A stretch of 64,000 nt of DNA from Parapristionchus giblindavisi (taxonomy: Eukaryota; Nematoda; Chromadorea; Rhabditida; Diplogasteridae), in the NCBI GenBank assembly GCA_943737045.1, contig CALSFV010000027.1, positions 558,001 to 622,000 on the forward strand. The letters run 5' to 3'. This document shows, piece by piece, positions 7,015-60,360 of the stretch. Position numbers and translations under genes: made by a program. Each line of letters opens with the position of its first letter. Positions within the stretch are counted from its first letter, which is position 1. The notes under the pieces were generated by a model. The model was not told where the DNA came from. It did no database searches and was given only the letters and a program-made list of their open reading frames with translations.

Positions 7015-7430
7015 CAAGCTAAAGCTTCTGTAAGCATTTATCAACAAAAACAGGAAGTAAAGACGACAGATAGCTAAGTCCTAAGAATTCAATTGATTCG
7101 AAAGTTTTTTCTCTTTTGCTCAAATCTGAACGTCATCTTCTCCACTATCACGATCAACAACTTCCCATCACTCATGATTGATTCGCCTCATCGACGCTGT
7201 TTTCAAGCTGTCGTCGTTCCTCACACTTTCTAGGATTTTCATCATCGAATATTGATTTTTCCATTTGAATTCATTGTTTGATGATTAATTTGAAGTCGAT
7301 GCCTGGAGTTTAGAAAGATACAGATCGAAGACATTCACTATCAATACAATCACATCAACACTAATTATATCAACAGTAGCATTATTGCAACTTTTTACGA
7401 AATACTCCTCACTTTAGGCGATTTTATAAG

Positions 7431-7525
7431 TCCCCGATCAAATTTTTTTCTCCGCTCTGGCAACACTATCGTAGACGCGGAGAGCGAGAGAGTATAGCCA
7501 GATCGGAGAGCTTTAAATTTGCGCC
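7431..7525. mobile_element. MITE family A copy
   Basis: Arms TTCTCCGCTCTGGCAACAC and GCCAGATCGGAGAGCTTT flank a CGTAGACGCGGAGAGCGAG centre. The outer ends are decayed and no TTAA pair remains. Confidence 0.65.
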
Positions 7526-7687
7526 TTCAAACCCCCTTAATTCTCCCATCATCCCAATTTGAACTCTTGCTGGCAGGTGGCAACGAGCAGTTTGTTATGA
7601 AACAACTGACTCTCTTCCTTTAAGGATTAACTCTCGATCCCTTACGGCAACCATCCTCTCTCACTATCTGTCCAATGAAAATCTTCC

Positions 7688-7778
7688 CTTATGCATCGTT
7701 ACATTTGACTTACGTGCCTACGCCGTAGCCCCCCTCCGCCGCGTCGGACACGCGGCAAATGTAACGACGCATTACAAA
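7688..7778. repeat. Short inverted repeat (hairpin)
   Basis: ATGCATCGTTACATTTG is followed about 50 bp later by CAAATGTAACGACGCAT. It could be a small fold-back element remnant; there is no further context. Confidence 0.5.
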
Positions 7779-8097
7779 CACTCATTTGAACCACATAAAA
7801 GCATTGCTTCAATCATAAATGTATTTATTGGTACCTTTTTTTCTTTCTACCATGGCGTGGATATATTATTTATAATTGCCTCTGGGAGGCTAGATTTCTC
7901 TTACAATCACGATCGGAAACTTATTCTAGTCATGCCATCTAGTTAGCTTGATGGTGCGACATCCAGTGTATTCAATGATCCATTAGCTTGGCATCTGTTG
8001 TTTTCGCACTATCGAATTGCACTATCATTACGAAACGCCAAAGTGTCGTAGTCACTATGGAATGTTAAGAATGTTGCAGTCGTGTCTGGTCCGTCAA

Positions 8098-8290
8098 GCT
8101 CTACCTCTGTCTCTCTCTACCTCTACCTCTGCCTCTACCTCTGCCTCTACCTCTGTCTCTCTACCTCTACCTCTACCTCTAGCTCTGCCTCTACCTCTGT
8201 CTCTCTACCTCTACCTCTACCTCTTCCTCTACCTCCACCTCCACCTCTACCTCTACCTCTACCTCTTCCTCTTCCTCTACCACTCTCCCT
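8098..8290. repeat. Imperfect CTCTAC hexamer array
   Basis: Degenerate tandem copies of CTCTAC with CTCTGC and CTCTTC variants. The same hexamer recurs on the same strand near 9384 and, far cleaner, at 60157. The long leucine/serine open readings are repeat artefacts. Confidence 0.9.
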
Positions 8291-8679
8291 ATCTCTCCCA
8301 CTTCCGATTGTAACACTAAGACTGCAGTGGGAAGAGAGTCATTGTGATGACGTGTAATTTGTCATCCACTTCGCACTTTTGAATATCAAAGAATGCCCAA
8401 ACACTAGATGATCTAGCTCTTTAAGGAACACTTCAATCTCGCTCTCCACTTTGATTGCACTTTCGAGCGGGAAAAAAGAAATATGCCTTTTCAAGGAAGA
8501 TATTCAAATAACAACGTTATTTTCCTGGTAACTTCGAACCTAATGGATTACAGTCTTTGTATGGACGCAACATTTATGGTCCAAGAAGATCATGGTCTCG
8601 TAGGAGCGCCAGATCAATGTGTTGCTTATTTTATATTTCCTATTGTTCTTTATTATCTTTTAATTAAATGATAGACACA

Positions 8680-8935
8680 CCTCCACTACCATGGCGAGAT
8701 GAACTGAGAAGAGAAGGAATTTTCTGACAGTCTTGGCCTATAGAAGATGCTAATCGCATCATTACTCATCTGACTTAACTCTGATATGGAACACTATTTG
8801 AATTACACGTCCATTCATCCATCTTCATATGCTTGGCGAATGATCTCTCGTTTCTGCTTCTCATTTTACTGTTGAATTATATGTTTGACTAATTATGGTG
8901 AATAAATAATTATTATTATGCTGGTTACTCATCCA
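8680..8935 (+). mobile_element. RTE-like non-LTR retrotransposon, 3' end fragment
   Basis: Plus-strand match to the 3' end seen at 4640-4995 on the other strand. It shares the CTACxxTGGCGAGATGAA segment and the TCATTACTCATCTGAC segment with its stop, followed by a 3' UTR ending in AATAAATAATTATTATTATG. The coding part has an extra stop and is degenerate. The (ATT)n-like tail is typical of RTE elements. Confidence 0.65.
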
Positions 8936-26083: not shown

Positions 26084-26967
26084 TAGACCTGACCGCAAAG
26101 ACGTGCAAACATTGAGTGTTGGGCAAGTGTTTTATTGAACAGCGGTAGGGGTGAATATCTAGATATGCGAAATAGTAAAAGACATATTAATTAATTAATT
26201 TATTTATTTATTTTATCCAATTTATTTATTTTATCCATTTTATTTTAATATTCTAATAAAGTTACTGTAGCGACTACCTTCATTCATAATTAGTTCACTC
26301 TGCAATAATACTATTCAAATTGGTATAAACCAATTACCTATCATTCATAATATTATCTCACTAGTGTATAAGACCATTCCATCGCCAACCACATCACCCA
26401 ATTATTTGTATTATAAATAAATATATTGAATATAATCCTTTGTATTACACACTACCATTGTACCAAATAAGGGCAAGGGTAGTTCTTTATTTTTTTTATT
26501 TTTTTATTTGATACACACGTGACAGGTGAGACAGCAAATACAGAAACGATGAGAAAAATAATTATCATAATGATAGAAAGGACTTGAGGAAGGTGACAGG
26601 GGTTTATCGATAGCTATCAAATCGCCAGTGATCCAGTTTGAGTGAGGTGGACGAGGTCTCAGAACGGGAAGGGGACCGTTCAGATCCATGTGAGGGATTG
26701 GATCATAATGGAATCACCGGGATAGACAACTAAAGATTGAGTACTTCGACTTGTAAAGTATGGGGAATTTGGGGATGGCGAAATAGATGAAATTTGATAG
26801 ATTGAATTGACAACAGTGGATTACAGATACGATGTAAATTACACAAAAAACGAGTAGTACGATGTGCAAATGAGCTACGAAGATTCTCTCTTTTAGCAAT
26901 TGGAATGTGAATAGAGAATGCATTGTGACGAGAATTACAATTTCGTAAAGCATTGTAATCAGACATA

Positions 26968-27663
26968 CAGTAGCGCCCATAAGTCTGAATACACTTTTTA
27001 ATTCTCTTGTAATTTTTGGGTCAGTTGAGATATCAAGCTGTAATGTGGACATTATGTACCCAATGTATGTATGTATTCGATACCCTTATAAGGTCTCACG
27101 GGCCTTTCTGGTTATTGCATAGCGATGACGCAACCGAGCAATACTTTTTCGAAAATTCATTATTCTTTCAATGATTTTTTCGTACTTGTCAAACTTCGTG
27201 AGCATTGAGAGAACTACAAGGCCTATCCAGAAAAGAAGTTTTAGGTTGCTGCGAATTCGGGTATTGGCTGCAGACTTGCTGCAATTTCGCGGTCGCAAAA
27301 TCATATCTCGGCTTCTAGAATAGCTTTAAAGGAGTTCAAAGCTGCAAACTGATTCTCTTGGTCATTCCTGATAATCCTGTAAGTTTGGTAGCGGTAGCTC
27401 ATCCTCATGGATCGAAAAAGTCACTTTTTTACAAGACCCAACTTTGAAGGTTCACAATTCTGAGGGCGGACCTTGTAAAAATCTGGTTTTTGGATAGGAA
27501 TGTAGAAAATATATTACTTAATCGATACCCCGCTTTTTAGAGCGAGTGCTAATCTTTCTTGCCTGCGGCAGTCGATTATCTGAAGGATAGTGGTTTAGGC
27601 CGCGCTCCCTTCTCATCTCGCAACCCGTACACATCTCTAAGCTTTTCACACTGCTCAACGAGC
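26968..27663 (+). repeat. Left terminal inverted repeat of the 6.2-kb element
   Basis: Matches the reverse complement of 32452-33145 along nearly its full length, with scattered substitutions. The subterminal GATGACGCAACCGAGCAATA lies about 155 bp from the end and is also present, slightly changed, in the fold-back element at 62531. Confidence 0.9.
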
Positions 27664-28069
27664 TTTGATAGATGAAATCATTCTAAAACGTATTCTCGCT
27701 AATCCTGAACATCATAGTCTATAAAAGAAAGCGTTTTTGATCTTCTTTGATCGAATGAAACAACTTTTCGTTATTAATTCGTTATAAAATTACGGACGCC
27801 TCGGTTGGCATACTGTAAGTAAAAAAGTTGGCGTTCAGGTTGCGATAGCCTTACATTCGCTTCGTGCGGCTCTTTCCGCTATTCTTTTTCATTTTTTCTG
27901 TTATTATTTAGTTATCTTTATGTTATTCTGTAGTTTACTACTTCATTCGTGTTCGGTAGTCCTTTTTGTTATCAATACATTCTCGGTAACTTTCAATTTC
28001 TCGAGGAAAAAGCTTGGTTTGTGATTTCGAAAAAAAGTAGTTTATATTGAATAACCGAAACAAACTATA

Positions 28070-28075
28070 TTTATT
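28070..28075 (-). promoter_or_regulatory. Poly(A) signal of the transposase gene
   Basis: AATAAA on the minus strand 32 bp beyond the transposase stop codon. Confidence 0.6.
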
Positions 28076-28106
28076 CAACGAAATTAGGTATATAACGTGA
28101 ATAAGA

Positions 28107-30798
28107 TTAATCCGCGTCATCCTCCGTGTCATCTTCTGTATCCATATCCTCCATCATTGATCCAATCAGCAGATGCAGCTGGTTATGCGTGCCAGATCGA
28201 GCGAGAAGTGAGGCATCAAGATCTTCTTCATCTTCTTCTTCCTCAGGTAATTCAGCTTCTAGATTAGTGTCCACAGGGTGAGCACACACTGGGCGGGTTT
28301 GATCCTCCCATAGTTTCTAAATTACGAAATGTTTTAGTGTGATTAAAATTAAATTTACCTTCATTCTTTCGTGTTCATCCTTCGCCATCTTCTCAGTTGC
28401 ATACGGGGTCAAAGACATATTAGCCCTCTCCTATTTTTATGCATAATCAATTCGAATTAGTATGCATATAGTCGAATACCTCATAAACTTGGTCCTTTAT
28501 CTGCTTGCGCCACTTGAAAGTAGCTGGAGTCTTGGCATTCCGATATAGAATCATCTTTCGCGTGTTATTATGGTATCTTTTCTTTGATTCCTGTATAATA
28601 TTACAATTAAAATCGTAACAATTAATATTTTGATATTTGCCGACCACTATTCTTGTTCCTTCTCTCTCTTCCTCCTTTAATTCATTCCAGTGAATTACAG
28701 TTAGTTCAGTTCGAAGTTCATGTCCCTCTCTTAAACATTTCGGTTAAAAACGCTCTTTTTATCAATGATTCTGACCTCGAGAAGTAATTCTCCTTTGTGG
28801 CATAACGCCATGCCATTGCATTCACCGACTCGACCTGGCTTGTCACTAGGAACCAGCAAACAGATTTGATGTCCTCTATGTTCTTAGCGGTGAATATTAT
28901 AGTCTTCAAACGCTTATAAGCTGGATCACCAATATCTATGTATTCAGGTCCTTCGGTGGCATGTGGTGCCGAGTGTACACACTTGGGGAATCGGGATAGT
29001 TCAGGATACTGTAATTGTTATGCATTTGCATAAATGGAAATTTATTGATCGATAAATAAATTGATTCTTACAGAGGAGAAATCATGCACTCCCGCAATAC
29101 AAAGGAGGCTGGCTTGAAACATTTGAGAGGCAAGCTCTCCATCACCAGCCGATGATGTCACAGCATGGTACGCTTTATTTATTAACGTCCGGATCCAGGT
29201 CCTCACCACACTCATGTAGTTGGGGCTCGAAATCTAAGAAGAGAAAATCGATATTCTCGTATATGCGGATACAGTACCTTCATTAGGTTTATCACCATGT
29301 TGCGAAAGAAATGCCATGGGTCATAGAAATGTGTGATAGTGGGAAAGTCCTTCATCATCATACAACAGCTTTATGTCTATCTGTCACAATACAGTCTATG
29401 TGCTGTATTCCTCCAATCTTAGCTCCCAACTCTTCCAGGCCTTTCTGTAATGCACGGACCTAAATATCGATTTATTTGATTATTGATTTTTTGCATGACT
29501 AATATCTCACTTCCAAAGTTCCAGAAGAACCTGTCTCTTTCTTGTGCATGAGCACGTGATGGAGAACATCTCCAGTATCAGCATCCATCAAGAAATATCT
29601 ACACCACATGGCCGAATGACCACGTGAATCGAAGGAACCATCACCAGCTAACTTCAGCTTGCCTCCCTGTAAGCGCATGTTTATAATCTATCGATCGATA
29701 CTGTGCATGATTATCGATTATCGATTGATTCTTACATTTGATAGTTTCTCCTTCAGTCGCTCGAATATTCCATCTTGTACTTTCACAAACTGTTTATGAA
29801 CAGCCGGAACTACGTATGATCTCTTGATCCGGTTAAAAGATGACTTTGATAGTCGATTCATACCGAAAGTTGAGACAAACTGATTGGCCTTCTGTAATTC
29901 AATCGATAATGCGCGTTACCGTAATCCCGCTCACTAACCGTGTAACCTACAGCGGTTACGGTAGCAGCCGTTACCACGTCTACATTGACCTTCTTCAACT
30001 TCTCATTGTTGGAAGCATTGGCTGTTTGTAATATTTTGCTATTTGACCACGTCCATTTGTTTCCACAAGTATTACAATTTCCCCTGCATGTAATGGCCAA
30101 CTGCTCCTGATGGAATGCGAGAGAGTTCTCTCCATTAGAGCACTTGGTACAGGGACGGAGCATATTTATCATGGCACCCGTTTCTATGATAACATAGTCA
30201 GTTGAGGGGGCACCAGTAGTGGTAGGCTTAGGGGGTGTCCAGTTTGGATCATTATGAAGATCATTCACCTGATATATTCACATTTTGACGAATATTGATT
30301 AGTGCAATATCCTAATAATCGATTTACTTACAGTATCGGAGCGGAAGTTACAGAGACGACAAGGAGGATGTACTGGAGAGAAGAAATGAGATGGAGATGG
30401 AGGGAGAAGAGGTTGTAGAGGAGGGTGAGGAAGAACAGGGGTTGGTGGAGGTGAGTGAGTAGGATCGATGTCCTCTCTCTGTAACAGGTGATTCGTTTTT
30501 GTACTCATTTTTATTTTATTTTGATAAAGAATATTGATTTAATAAATACCTGATTGATTGGTACTGCATCCGGACGGAGAATATGTGTAGTGGGGGTATT
30601 GATGAATGATGAAGGTTCGAAATGACTCTCACATATGCGTGGGCGATTGCGAGCATTGAGACGACATTCTAGGCTTTCCTTTTCTTGATCATTCTTAGAC
30701 AAATTATCGATCCATTTTTCGCGCAATCCTCTCTTTACTGTAAACGACACTAACTCTTTTCGAAGAGTTAGTTTGAGACAATATGCACATGTTTCCAT
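28107..30798 (-). pseudogene. THAP-domain DDE transposase, two frameshifts
   Basis: Eleven minus-strand exons: 30798-30550, 30478-30332, 30268-29939, 29891-29736, 29666-29511, 29459-29278, 29233-29072, 29008-28648, 28590-28480, 28430-28359, 28316-28107. Exon 1 is a THAP zinc finger (C4, C7, W29, C56, H59, DAVP at 77-80). A proline-rich linker follows, then a four-cysteine segment (C172, C175, C197, C200). The catalytic signature comes next: GDGSFDSRGHSA (D about 303), VTDRH (D about 373) and TSQVES (E about 521). The tail is acidic. This layout is that of THAP-containing cut-and-paste transposases. One base is missing near 29355-29365 and one is extra in the CCC run near 28724, so continuous reading needs two corrections; the copy is probably inactive unless these are assembly errors. 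The exon 3 donor could also be 12 bp earlier, in frame. It lies 126 bp downstream of the P2X7-like gene. Confidence 0.85.
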
Positions 30799-30924
30799 CT
30801 ACAATAGAGGCGATATACAGAAGGGTTACTGTATCAGAAGGGTTGCATGTATCACGTATCGATTATTGACAGATTTCACACACATACATTGATCAATTAA
30901 GTCAATAAAAGCTTTATCGGCATT

Positions 30925-31617
30925 TTAAGAAATATCAAAACATTCGATGTTCTTAAATCCGGAGTATACGGTAGATGGCCACTTCTTCCGGATTGAGTAG
31001 ACCACACAAGCGGGTAGGCGAATCCGTCTTCCTTTGCCCATTGGTCCGATAGTTTTTGCGATCAGGACTCGATAAGCTCCGTACCGTTTTCTCCTAACAA
31101 GTATGATCAATTTCATTACAGTATTCCAGCCATTTATGAATTGCATACTCTATCAGTTATAGTGAATGTTAGAAAAGACTTACTTATTTTCATCTTCCTC
31201 GTAACAACTTCCGATGTACAGTGAATGGAGTTCCGCTGATGTCGATGCTATCTGTGATGCGAAAATATAGATCAAAGATCACAAATCAGAGAATGAGCGT
31301 ACCTTATCATCCAGTATGTAATCGATAAAGAAGGCATCAGAGCAGATACATTCGTGAGACTGCCCCAATTTTTTCTCCACGCCCTCCTTGTGTAGTTTGC
31401 CCTTCTTATTAAGAGCCAAGGAGAAGAGGGATTGACAACAGTAATCGTTCTCATATCGTTCATCAATCGATGGACACATATTACACTTACATAGAGCTGT
31501 TTCATCCTTATCTACTCCTTTTGCAAATAGTTCCATCTCTCGATCATCTTTTTCTTTCATCTTTTTCAGAGCTTTTGATGTCTCCGAGCGAGATGGCAGA
31601 AAATCATCATAATCCAT
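30925..31617 (-). CDS. P2X7 receptor ballast-domain-like zinc protein
   Basis: Three exons (31617-31303, 31251-31184, 31093-30925) give 183 residues. The N-terminal half has the cysteine cluster CKCNMCPS (43-50) and DYCC (58-61), then HECICSDAFFID (88-99). The C-terminal half has YGAYRVLIAK, GKGRRIRLPACVVYSIRKKWP (147-167) and YSGF (171-174). That order (CxC..C, CC, then YR..GKG.R..iP.C...IR..fP....Y.GF) is the pattern of the intracellular ballast domain of vertebrate P2X7, which binds zinc and guanine nucleotide; in invertebrates it occurs without the channel. No membrane segment is present, so it is likely intracellular. It lies inside the transposon, upstream of the transposase on the same strand. 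Its role there is unknown. The start is the first ATG, directly after a CTGTAG acceptor-like sequence. Confidence 0.82.
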
Positions 31618-32035
31618 CTACAGTATATGTATATATCACTTGAAAACACATGAAATCAGAATTACACCAAAAAATAACGTAAGCAAGAGTTGAAAATTTA
31701 AAAAAATGAAGACTACGCGTCTCCTCTCGCTCTCATATGCAAATTTATGCAAATTTATCTCTCAGAGTCATATCGATTGATTTGAGTGAAACAAGGACCA
31801 GTGATCTACCAGACACTTCTCTTGAATTGAACTATACCTAAATTAGCTTGCTTCTGGTTATTTAATTCCACTTGACTTTTTCTGAACATTTATCCCAATG
31901 CATTATTTTACCGTAATATTGAGAAAAAGAGAGTGAGAGCGGAAAGTAACGATAAATCAAGAGGGAGAGAGAACAACTCTCTTGTATTCCATTCCCTATC
32001 GGTAGAAAGATCTAATGGATTTGAGAAGACCAGAC

Positions 32036-32312
32036 CGTGGCATGTGTGGTGCATTGGCTAGTTGCCAGCTCTTGTAACCGCGCCTCACGTGTTCTATTCC
32101 CTTTGGCTGTTCAATCTTTTGTGAATCGTTTTCATTCAGATTCAAAATCTCGCGCCTTTACCCTGGACTTGGATAAGACTTTCCTCCATGATTACAGTAT
32201 TTCAAAGCTCTTATTATTTTTATGGAAAATTGTTTTTGCATACAAGGAGATGTGATCTATAGTTCTGCCTGAACAGTTTAGTCACGAAAAAACTCGAGGG
32301 TCCCCTTCTTTA
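32036..32312 (+). mobile_element. SINE-like element, second copy
   Basis: Matches the interior and right end of 12331-12680, sharing GGAGATGTGATCTATAGTTC, CACGAAAAAACTCGAGGG and TCCCCTTCTTTAA. The B-box is degenerate (TGTTCTATTCC) and no matching left inverted end is found. It lies between the P2X7-like gene start and the right TIR, so it inserted into the 6.2-kb transposon or belongs to its 5' flank. Confidence 0.7.
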
Positions 32313-32451
32313 AGCAAAATCTGACGAAAAACGAGCAAAGATCAAAGATCAAGTATCGAAAACACAAAGATCACAGACCAAAAACTGGATTCATACAGTG
32401 TCTCTCTATTCTGACTAATCAAATCACTAAAACCGGCTAAATCGTCATTGA

Positions 32452-33145
32452 GCAGTGTGAAAAGCCTAGAGATGTGTACTGGTCGCGAGATGAGAAGAGA
32501 GCGCGGCCTAAACGACTATCCTTCAGATAATCGACTGCCGCAGGCAAGAAAGATCAGCAATCGCTCTAAAAAGCGGGGAATCGATTATTTAATATATTTT
32601 CTACATTCCTATCCAAAAACCAGATTTTTACAATGTCCGCACTCAGAATTGTGATTTTTCAAAGTTGGGTCTTGTAAAAAAGTGACTTTTTCGATCCATG
32701 AAGATGAATGATGAGCTACCGCTACCAAACTTACAGGATTATCAGGAATGACCAAGAGAATCAGTTTGCAGCTTTGAACTCCTTTAAAGCTATTCTAGAA
32801 GTCGAGATATGATTTTGCGACCGCGATATTGCAGCAAGTCTGCAGCCAATACCCGAATTCGCAGCAACCTGAAACTTCTTTTCTGGATAGGCCTTGTAGT
32901 TCTCTCAATGCTCACGAAGTTTGATGAGTACGAAAAAATCCCTGAAAGAATAATGAATTTTCGAAAAAGTATTGTTCGGTAGCGTCACCACTATGCAATA
33001 ACCAGAAAGGCCCGTGAGACCTTATAAGGGTATTGAATACACACATACATTGGGTACATAATGTCCACATTACAGCTGGAACTCTCAACTGACCCAAAAA
33101 TTACAACAGAAATAAAAAGTGTAGTCAGACTTTTGGGCGCTACTG
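32452..33145 (-). repeat. Right terminal inverted repeat of the 6.2-kb element
   Basis: Inverse partner of 26968-27663; ends GGGCGCTACTG and is followed by TA. Confidence 0.9.
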
Positions 33146-33780
33146 TATGTACATCGACAAGTGAGCGAGTTCTCCTCCGTTGTATGTATACCATAAGTCA
33201 AACAACACTCCCGTCGGGAGTCGTTACAGTTACATGTGCAAAAGTTTCATTGAATGGAGATGAATTCTCTTAAAGATGAAAGGATCGATCTTGTGGATAA
33301 GAAGATTCCCCATGTTTTGGCCAAATTCATATGAAATGCTGACACGATAAATATTAGTATTATTATTATGATAGTAGCTAAAGTCCGCAGAATGCTGGAT
33401 AAGAGAAAAGATAAAGAAATGATTATTAAAGACCAAAGATCAAAGAGTACACCGTGGACAAAAATAGTGAATTGGGAAAGAAATAATACGAAAATGAAAT
33501 AGTAAATAAAATTTGAATATTCGAGAGAAGTGAAGAACGTATTCATCATTTACAATTATTGCCTAAATCATTTCGTACTGCGAGATGTTTCCTGATCGGT
33601 TGGTTGCGCATATTGTTAATTTCGAATATACATACATATTCATTCCCTCCATAATATAAATCGATAATTTTCACTGGCTCCTCTCAGGGTTGGTTTCCTT
33701 GATTTCGCATTGAACATCAAAACGATATATTCCTATTTACTTTTTTTTATCGTCTTTGAAAAAATTTATTTTAAAAAAAT

Positions 33781-60156: not shown

Positions 60157-60360
60157 AACCTCTACCTCTACCTCTACCTCTACCTCTACCTCTACCTCTA
60201 CCTCTACCTCTACCTCTACCTCTACCTCTACCTCTACCTCTGCCTCTACCTCTACCTCTACCTCTGGCTCTGCCTCTACCTCTACCTCTACCTCTACCTC
60301 TACCTCTACCTCTACCTCTACCTCTACCTCTACCTCTACCTCTACCTCTACCTCTACCTC
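60157..60360. repeat. CTCTAC hexamer array (~34 units)
   Basis: Near-perfect tandem CTCTAC units over 204 bp with only a short interrupted block (TGCCTC, TGGCTC) around 60240-60272. It is not the nematode telomere repeat (TTAGGC). Six-base periodicity yields long (LY)n open frames without meaning. Confidence 0.95.

Follow-up and report, generated by a model that had tools for sequence, protein, structure and literature searches.

A probable Kolobok0-lineage transposon with a P2X7-ballast gene, nested in a short palindromic element of the nematode Parapristionchus giblindavisi

We analyzed a 64,000-nucleotide stretch of the Parapristionchus giblindavisi genome (GenBank assembly GCA_943737045.1, contig CALSFV010000027.1, positions 558,001 to 622,000; hereafter the window), in which a gene for a protein resembling the cytosolic ballast of the P2X7 receptor and a gene for a THAP-domain DDE transposase lie between TA-flanked inverted repeats. 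Judging from sequence comparison, we put a probability of about 0.94 on the following reading: the two genes belong to a DNA transposon of the Kolobok0 lineage, inserted at a TTAA within a copy of a short palindromic TA/CAGT element to which it is unrelated. What is established is that the locus has two sets of ends, that the insertion site is uninterrupted in 32 other copies of the outer element, that relatives of the inner element end at TTAA, that two genes are present, and that the left end of the inner element is missing.

The outer element has CAGT ends with TA at 26966-26967 and 33146-33147, and two pairs of inverted arms (26963-27403 and 32710-33150, 95% identity; 27399-27661 and 32445-32707, 94% identity). 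Without the inner insert it measures ~1.65 kb and is near-palindromic. We searched the genome (251 Mb; contigs are labeled C and fetched stretches L) with the left arm and obtained at least 45 matches, the best 40 of 720 candidates having been scored, which makes the outer copy number a lower bound. Among 32 copies that we compared, 30 stretches have a single end pair, the composite L061 and the one-ended L062 being excluded from this count. TA stands on both sides in 29 of these 30 (the exception is L057), L043 has an altered right CAGT end, and the length is 1616-1665 bp in 29 of the 30 and 1139 bp in the remaining copy.

The left half of the window's outer element aligns with 10 copies up to 27661-27774 at ~95% identity. 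In all 32 other copies, the sequence that the window holds up to 27774 is followed by 7-8 bp and then by the sequence that the window resumes at 32314. The commonest joint in these uninterrupted copies is GATTTTGA, while three of the 32 (L036, L039 and L060) have the joint GATTTTAA, which contains the TTAA of the window's right junction. All 32 are free of ballast and transposase protein matches (E≤0.01) and of DNA matches to the inner element (E≤0.001), and their longest stop-to-stop frame is 147 amino acids. Because all 32 copies are continuous across the site and free of inner matches, we read the window as one outer copy plus an insert of ~4.5 kb, laid out as follows.

26966-26967: TA target-site copy, left of the outer element (TA on both sides in 29/30 copies).
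26968-27774, plus strand: left half of the outer element with its CAGTAGCGCCCA end (~95% match to other copies, joint continuous in 32/32).
27775-27785: 11-bp filler replacing the inner left terminus, ~40 bp plus TTAA (comparison with the left parts of C391, C509 and C86).
27786-32309, minus strand: probable Kolobok0-type inner element, left-truncated, with its genes running right to left (homology to C86 from 27786 and to C391/C509 from 27806; shared right end).
32285-32309, minus strand: remaining inner terminal inverted repeat, starting AGAAGGGGACCCTCGAG (the C391 left end matches the right ends of six relatives).
32310-32313: TTAA target site at the inner right end (TTAA at both ends of 4/4 two-ended relatives).
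32314-33145, plus strand: right half of the outer element (copy alignment and continuous joint).
33146-33147: TA target-site copy, right of the outer element (sequence letters and copy comparison).

With its TA target, CAGT ends and lack of a transposase (gene absence being judged by matches to the inner genes), the outer element has the features of a miniature inverted-repeat transposable element. It may resemble the PALTA repeats of C. elegans, which are palindromic and target TA; a literature search on PALTA returned nothing that we judged relevant. Three further palindromic arrangements were seen along the way. The outer copy in L046 (C530:43950-46150) has flanks that are also inverted repeats, with ends CTGT/ACAG instead of CAGT/ACTG; L061 (C22:980800-984800) holds two adjoining outer elements with a common TA, one of them rearranged; and L025 carries at 7216-8773, near the C229 copy, a further palindromic, TA/CAGT-like element with TACAGTGGTGGCC ends and arms 97% identical.

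We then turn to the gene-bearing copies. Searching the genome with the ballast protein gave 16 matches at eight loci (the window, C229, C391, C509 and four on C341), and transposase matches occur at the window, C229, C391 and C509 as well. In C229, C391 and C509 the ballast gene lies upstream of the THAP gene, two of them being 68-74% identical in the matched ballast part. Homology of these three to the window stops at 32313/32314, where their flanks differ, and none of the three has a match to the CAGT repeats. C86 also has the inner right end, which lies at window 32309 and is followed by TTAA. C229 is 99% identical to the window's inner element over 3 kb (15 substitutions and five indels in ~3.05 kb), and C391 and C509 are 73-74% identical to it over the final 0.7 kb.

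C391 and C509 retain both ends, TTAA-AGAAGG(G/A)GACCCTAGAG ... GTGGGTCCCCATCT-TTAA, and thus AG...CT termini (5'-RR/YY-3'), of which the right one alone is readable in the window. TTAA stands at both ends in all four two-ended relatives that we read (C391, C509 and the short derivatives L069 and L071). At its left end, C391 begins with 25 bp that are 92-96% identical to the right ends of six relatives. When the genome was searched with the 124-bp inner right end, the best 40 of 1645 candidates were scored as matches, and short relatives of the inner element seem to be numerous.

The original prediction had correctly described the TA-flanked CAGT ends, the inverted repeats of about 0.7 kb and two genes in the same direction, a 183-residue ballast protein and a THAP DDE transposase, for which Pfam gives P2RX7_C, THAP and Mutator-like matches. 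Its view of one element holding everything, with the 0.7-kb repeats and the TA site as the ends of the gene-carrying transposon, does not survive. The CAGT repeats are a separate short element, the ends of the gene-bearing relatives are TTAA, and the genes sit in an inner element that lies elsewhere without the repeats. Nor do the genes always lie inside these repeats: none of the 32 other repeat copies holds them (all 32 lack the ballast gene, which it had named as counting against it), and none of the three other gene-bearing copies matches the repeats.

A variant of that view would have one autonomous element with 0.7-kb CAGT repeats that carries the ballast and THAP transposase genes and mobilizes the 1.65-kb palindromes as its deletion derivatives. 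The repeats do flank the genes and match the short copies at ~95%, but the 32 short copies have one common breakpoint, which is the inner right end, where independent deletions would differ, and they keep no inner DNA. The three other ballast/transposase copies, moreover, have that same inner right end and no CAGT-repeat match, and we regard this explanation as extremely unlikely. Two simpler proposals were rejected: a single 6.2-kb element, by the one breakpoint common to 32/32 copies, and a TA target for the ballast/THAP transposon, by its TTAA ends.

Within the nested arrangement that we favor, the inner element carries its two genes on the same strand. The ballast gene is named here after KolX, a Kolobok0 protein to which Kojima and Bao (2022; PMC9587614) ascribe the fold of the P2X7 ballast and from which, by their account, the P2X7 tail derives.

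31303-31617, minus strand: KolX exon 1, start codon at 31617 (splice model; P2RX7_C).
31184-31251, minus strand: KolX exon 2 (splice model; matching introns in the C341 genes).
30925-31093, minus strand: KolX exon 3 with stop (splice model; matched in C391 and C509).
30550-30798, minus strand: transposase exon 1, THAP zinc finger (PF05485).
30332-30478, minus strand: transposase exon 2 (splice model).
29939-30268, minus strand: transposase exon 3 (splice model).
29736-29891, minus strand: transposase exon 4 (splice model).
29511-29666, minus strand: transposase exon 5, likely first catalytic Asp in GDGSFDS (splice model; PF20700).
29364-29459, minus strand: transposase exon 6, likely second Asp in IVTDRH, frame break at its end (splice model, frame reading).
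29278-29352, minus strand: transposase exon 7, approximate start, DPWH (C/DxxH signature) (splice model, relatives' matches).
29072-29233, minus strand: transposase exon 8 (splice model, relatives' matches).
28776-29008, minus strand: transposase exon 9, possible zinc-finger C-x-H (KCVH) and likely catalytic Glu in QVESVNA (end set by splice-site reading).
28107-28735, minus strand: last transposase exons, acidic C-terminus, splicing approximate (open reading frames; query residues 541-599 match C391 and C509).

The transposase gene matches THAP (2.8e-7) and a Mutator-like transposase profile (PF20700, 1.2e-9) in Pfam. Exon 1 alone matches THAP at 1.6e-8, and PF20700 spans residues 159-334 of the joined exons 1-6. 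The putative catalytic residues D, D (TDRH) and E (QVESVNA) and the DPWH of C/DxxH were located in the exons by eye, as was a plausible zinc finger, C-x4-H...KCVH, between C/DxxH and E; exons 8 and 9 have no profile match.

The ballast gene has three exons and, in our splice model, an open frame of 183 amino acids whose product matches P2RX7_C (PF20478) at 1.8e-7 (31.7 bits, cut-off 23.5). In a protein database search none of 28 candidates reached E≤0.001, and by sequence the PDB gave P2X7 at E 0.061-0.52 only, below a histone H2B match (E 0.047-0.048) that we take as chance. A PF20478 search of the genome returned no match, but its control gave none either, which makes that negative uninformative. 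Between the window and C391 or C509, KolX exon 3 shows dN 0.134/dS 2.20 (42 codons) and dN 0.157/dS 1.56 (46 codons), respectively, two short matches of 12-13 codons (C391, C86) having been taken as chance and left aside. THAP-exon comparisons are noisier and involve broken frames (dN 0.08-0.50, dS 0.45-1.57). The KolX protein thus appears to have been conserved as the copy lineages diverged, and the apparent constraint on the ballast exon in relatives speaks for KolX being a functional component of the transposon.

Two features of the window's inner copy were absent from the original prediction. Comparison with C391, C509 and C86 shows that the left side has lost its TTAA and ~40 bp of terminus, with an 11-bp filler in their place, and the transposase reading frame is disrupted near 29365, where exon 6 ends. 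Because the left end is missing and the frame is broken, this copy looks dead. The relatives are damaged too: C229 has its own break in ballast exon 3, its homology ending at window 29263, and C391 and C509 are missing the transposase middle and the larger part of ballast exons 1-2. None of the five copies read (window, C229, C391, C509 and C86) is complete.

The inner element and its relatives show TTAA duplication, RR/YY termini and a DDE transposase with C/DxxH, which PMC9587614 gives as traits of Kolobok, together with the Kolobok0 trait of a second protein that is a ballast by sequence. Several points weigh against our reading. The outer sample is non-random, its 32 copies being the best left-arm matches; C86 has THAP-region matches and no ballast match; the target-site duplication of the inner copy is visible at the right side only, the left terminus and TTAA being gone; a single-sequence structure prediction of KolX had a mean pLDDT of 38, too poor for use, which leaves the ballast identity to sequence; and dS in the KolX exon is close to saturation in comparisons with C391 and C509, which are decayed.

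If the assignment is right, the THAP-DDE transposase would bind the element ends, cut, and paste into TTAA, and the zinc-cluster KolX would assist as an accessory factor, binding to the transposase alone or in complex with DNA, or to a host factor. The window copy would be incapable of moving itself, and many short derivatives may have arisen from related copies.

Stand-alone ballast genes also occur. C341:69170-85926 (L026-L028) holds a tandem array of four, of which the first is broken and the other three are intact, and no transposase match (E≤0.01) was found in the 37 kb examined around them. This could favor a host ballast gene captured once by the inner element, but ballast precedes THAP in C229, C391 and C509, two of which have diverged to 68-74% identity, and PMC9587614 reports KolX for Kolobok0 families. 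The C341 genes, furthermore, have the same two intron positions as the window KolX, and Kolobok-like end motifs (≤3 mismatches) at C341:64333, 67523, 74815 and 75470 hint at flow from transposon to host. We therefore consider capture very unlikely and keep KolX as a gene of the Kolobok0 lineage.

The C341 proteins share cysteines C43, C45, C48, C60, C61, C90 and C92 with the window KolX. By eye, the residues that face P2X7 Arg546 and Arg578 in the alignment, which PMC7016195 gives as guanosine-nucleotide contacts, are Arg and Arg in the window KolX, Ser and Glu in the C341 proteins. Pairwise dN/dS among the three intact genes is 0.13, 0.08 and 0.09, from few substitutions (2-3 amino-acid changes in 8-13) and in a tandem array that gene conversion may keep alike. 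It is possible, though we hold this tentatively and rate it below even odds, that the array is an independent domestication of KolX in this nematode, probably from a Kolobok copy, with the zinc cysteines kept, Ser/Glu at the Arg positions and purifying selection. Because gene conversion is possible and substitutions are few, this is a lead, not a result. If true, it would mirror how P2X7 and Nanor arose in vertebrates, and the array could be another path by which a transposon accessory protein becomes a host gene.

Apart from these elements, the window holds an ACCTCT hexamer array at 60158-60360 (~34 units, 96%). The 22-nucleotide nematode SL1 leader has 351 exact genome copies (80 forward, 271 reverse; the reversed-pattern control gave 0 and 0), which fits a nematode genome, and C145:26449-82876 is a long SL1 leader array with a spacing of mostly ~1.17 kb among the matches listed.

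A ballast protein alongside a transposase is an already published Kolobok0 trait. The original prediction's idea that such proteins may serve as transposon accessory proteins was right in kind; that ballast proteins travel with a transposase holds, and it had been published in 2022 (PMC9587614). The analysis does away with an apparently "new" element architecture that was spurious, and it adds a nematode case to the transposon lineage from which the P2X7 ballast has been proposed to stem. Open-access literature searches gave one paper on Kolobok with KolX and none on Kolobok, nematode and THAP. PMC7016195 documents ballast proteins in a range of animals, among them two nematodes.

Compared with Kolobok0 as described in PMC9587614, the element has the same TTAA, 5'-AG...CT-3' ends (in the relatives here), DDE with DxxH and second protein with a ballast signature, whereas the window copy is from a nematode, left-truncated, frame-broken and nested. 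Xenopus XKol/Kolobok (PMC6004289) likewise has TTAA, termini starting with AG, THAP plus DDE and related short elements; it is longer (6.8-13.9 kb, Table 5), and the word KolX is absent from the main text of that paper. With the P2X7 cytosolic ballast and the ZCD proteins (PMC7016195), the window KolX shares the zinc-cysteine cluster and the AYR...P.C block; unlike them, it has no channel part and is encoded by a transposon.

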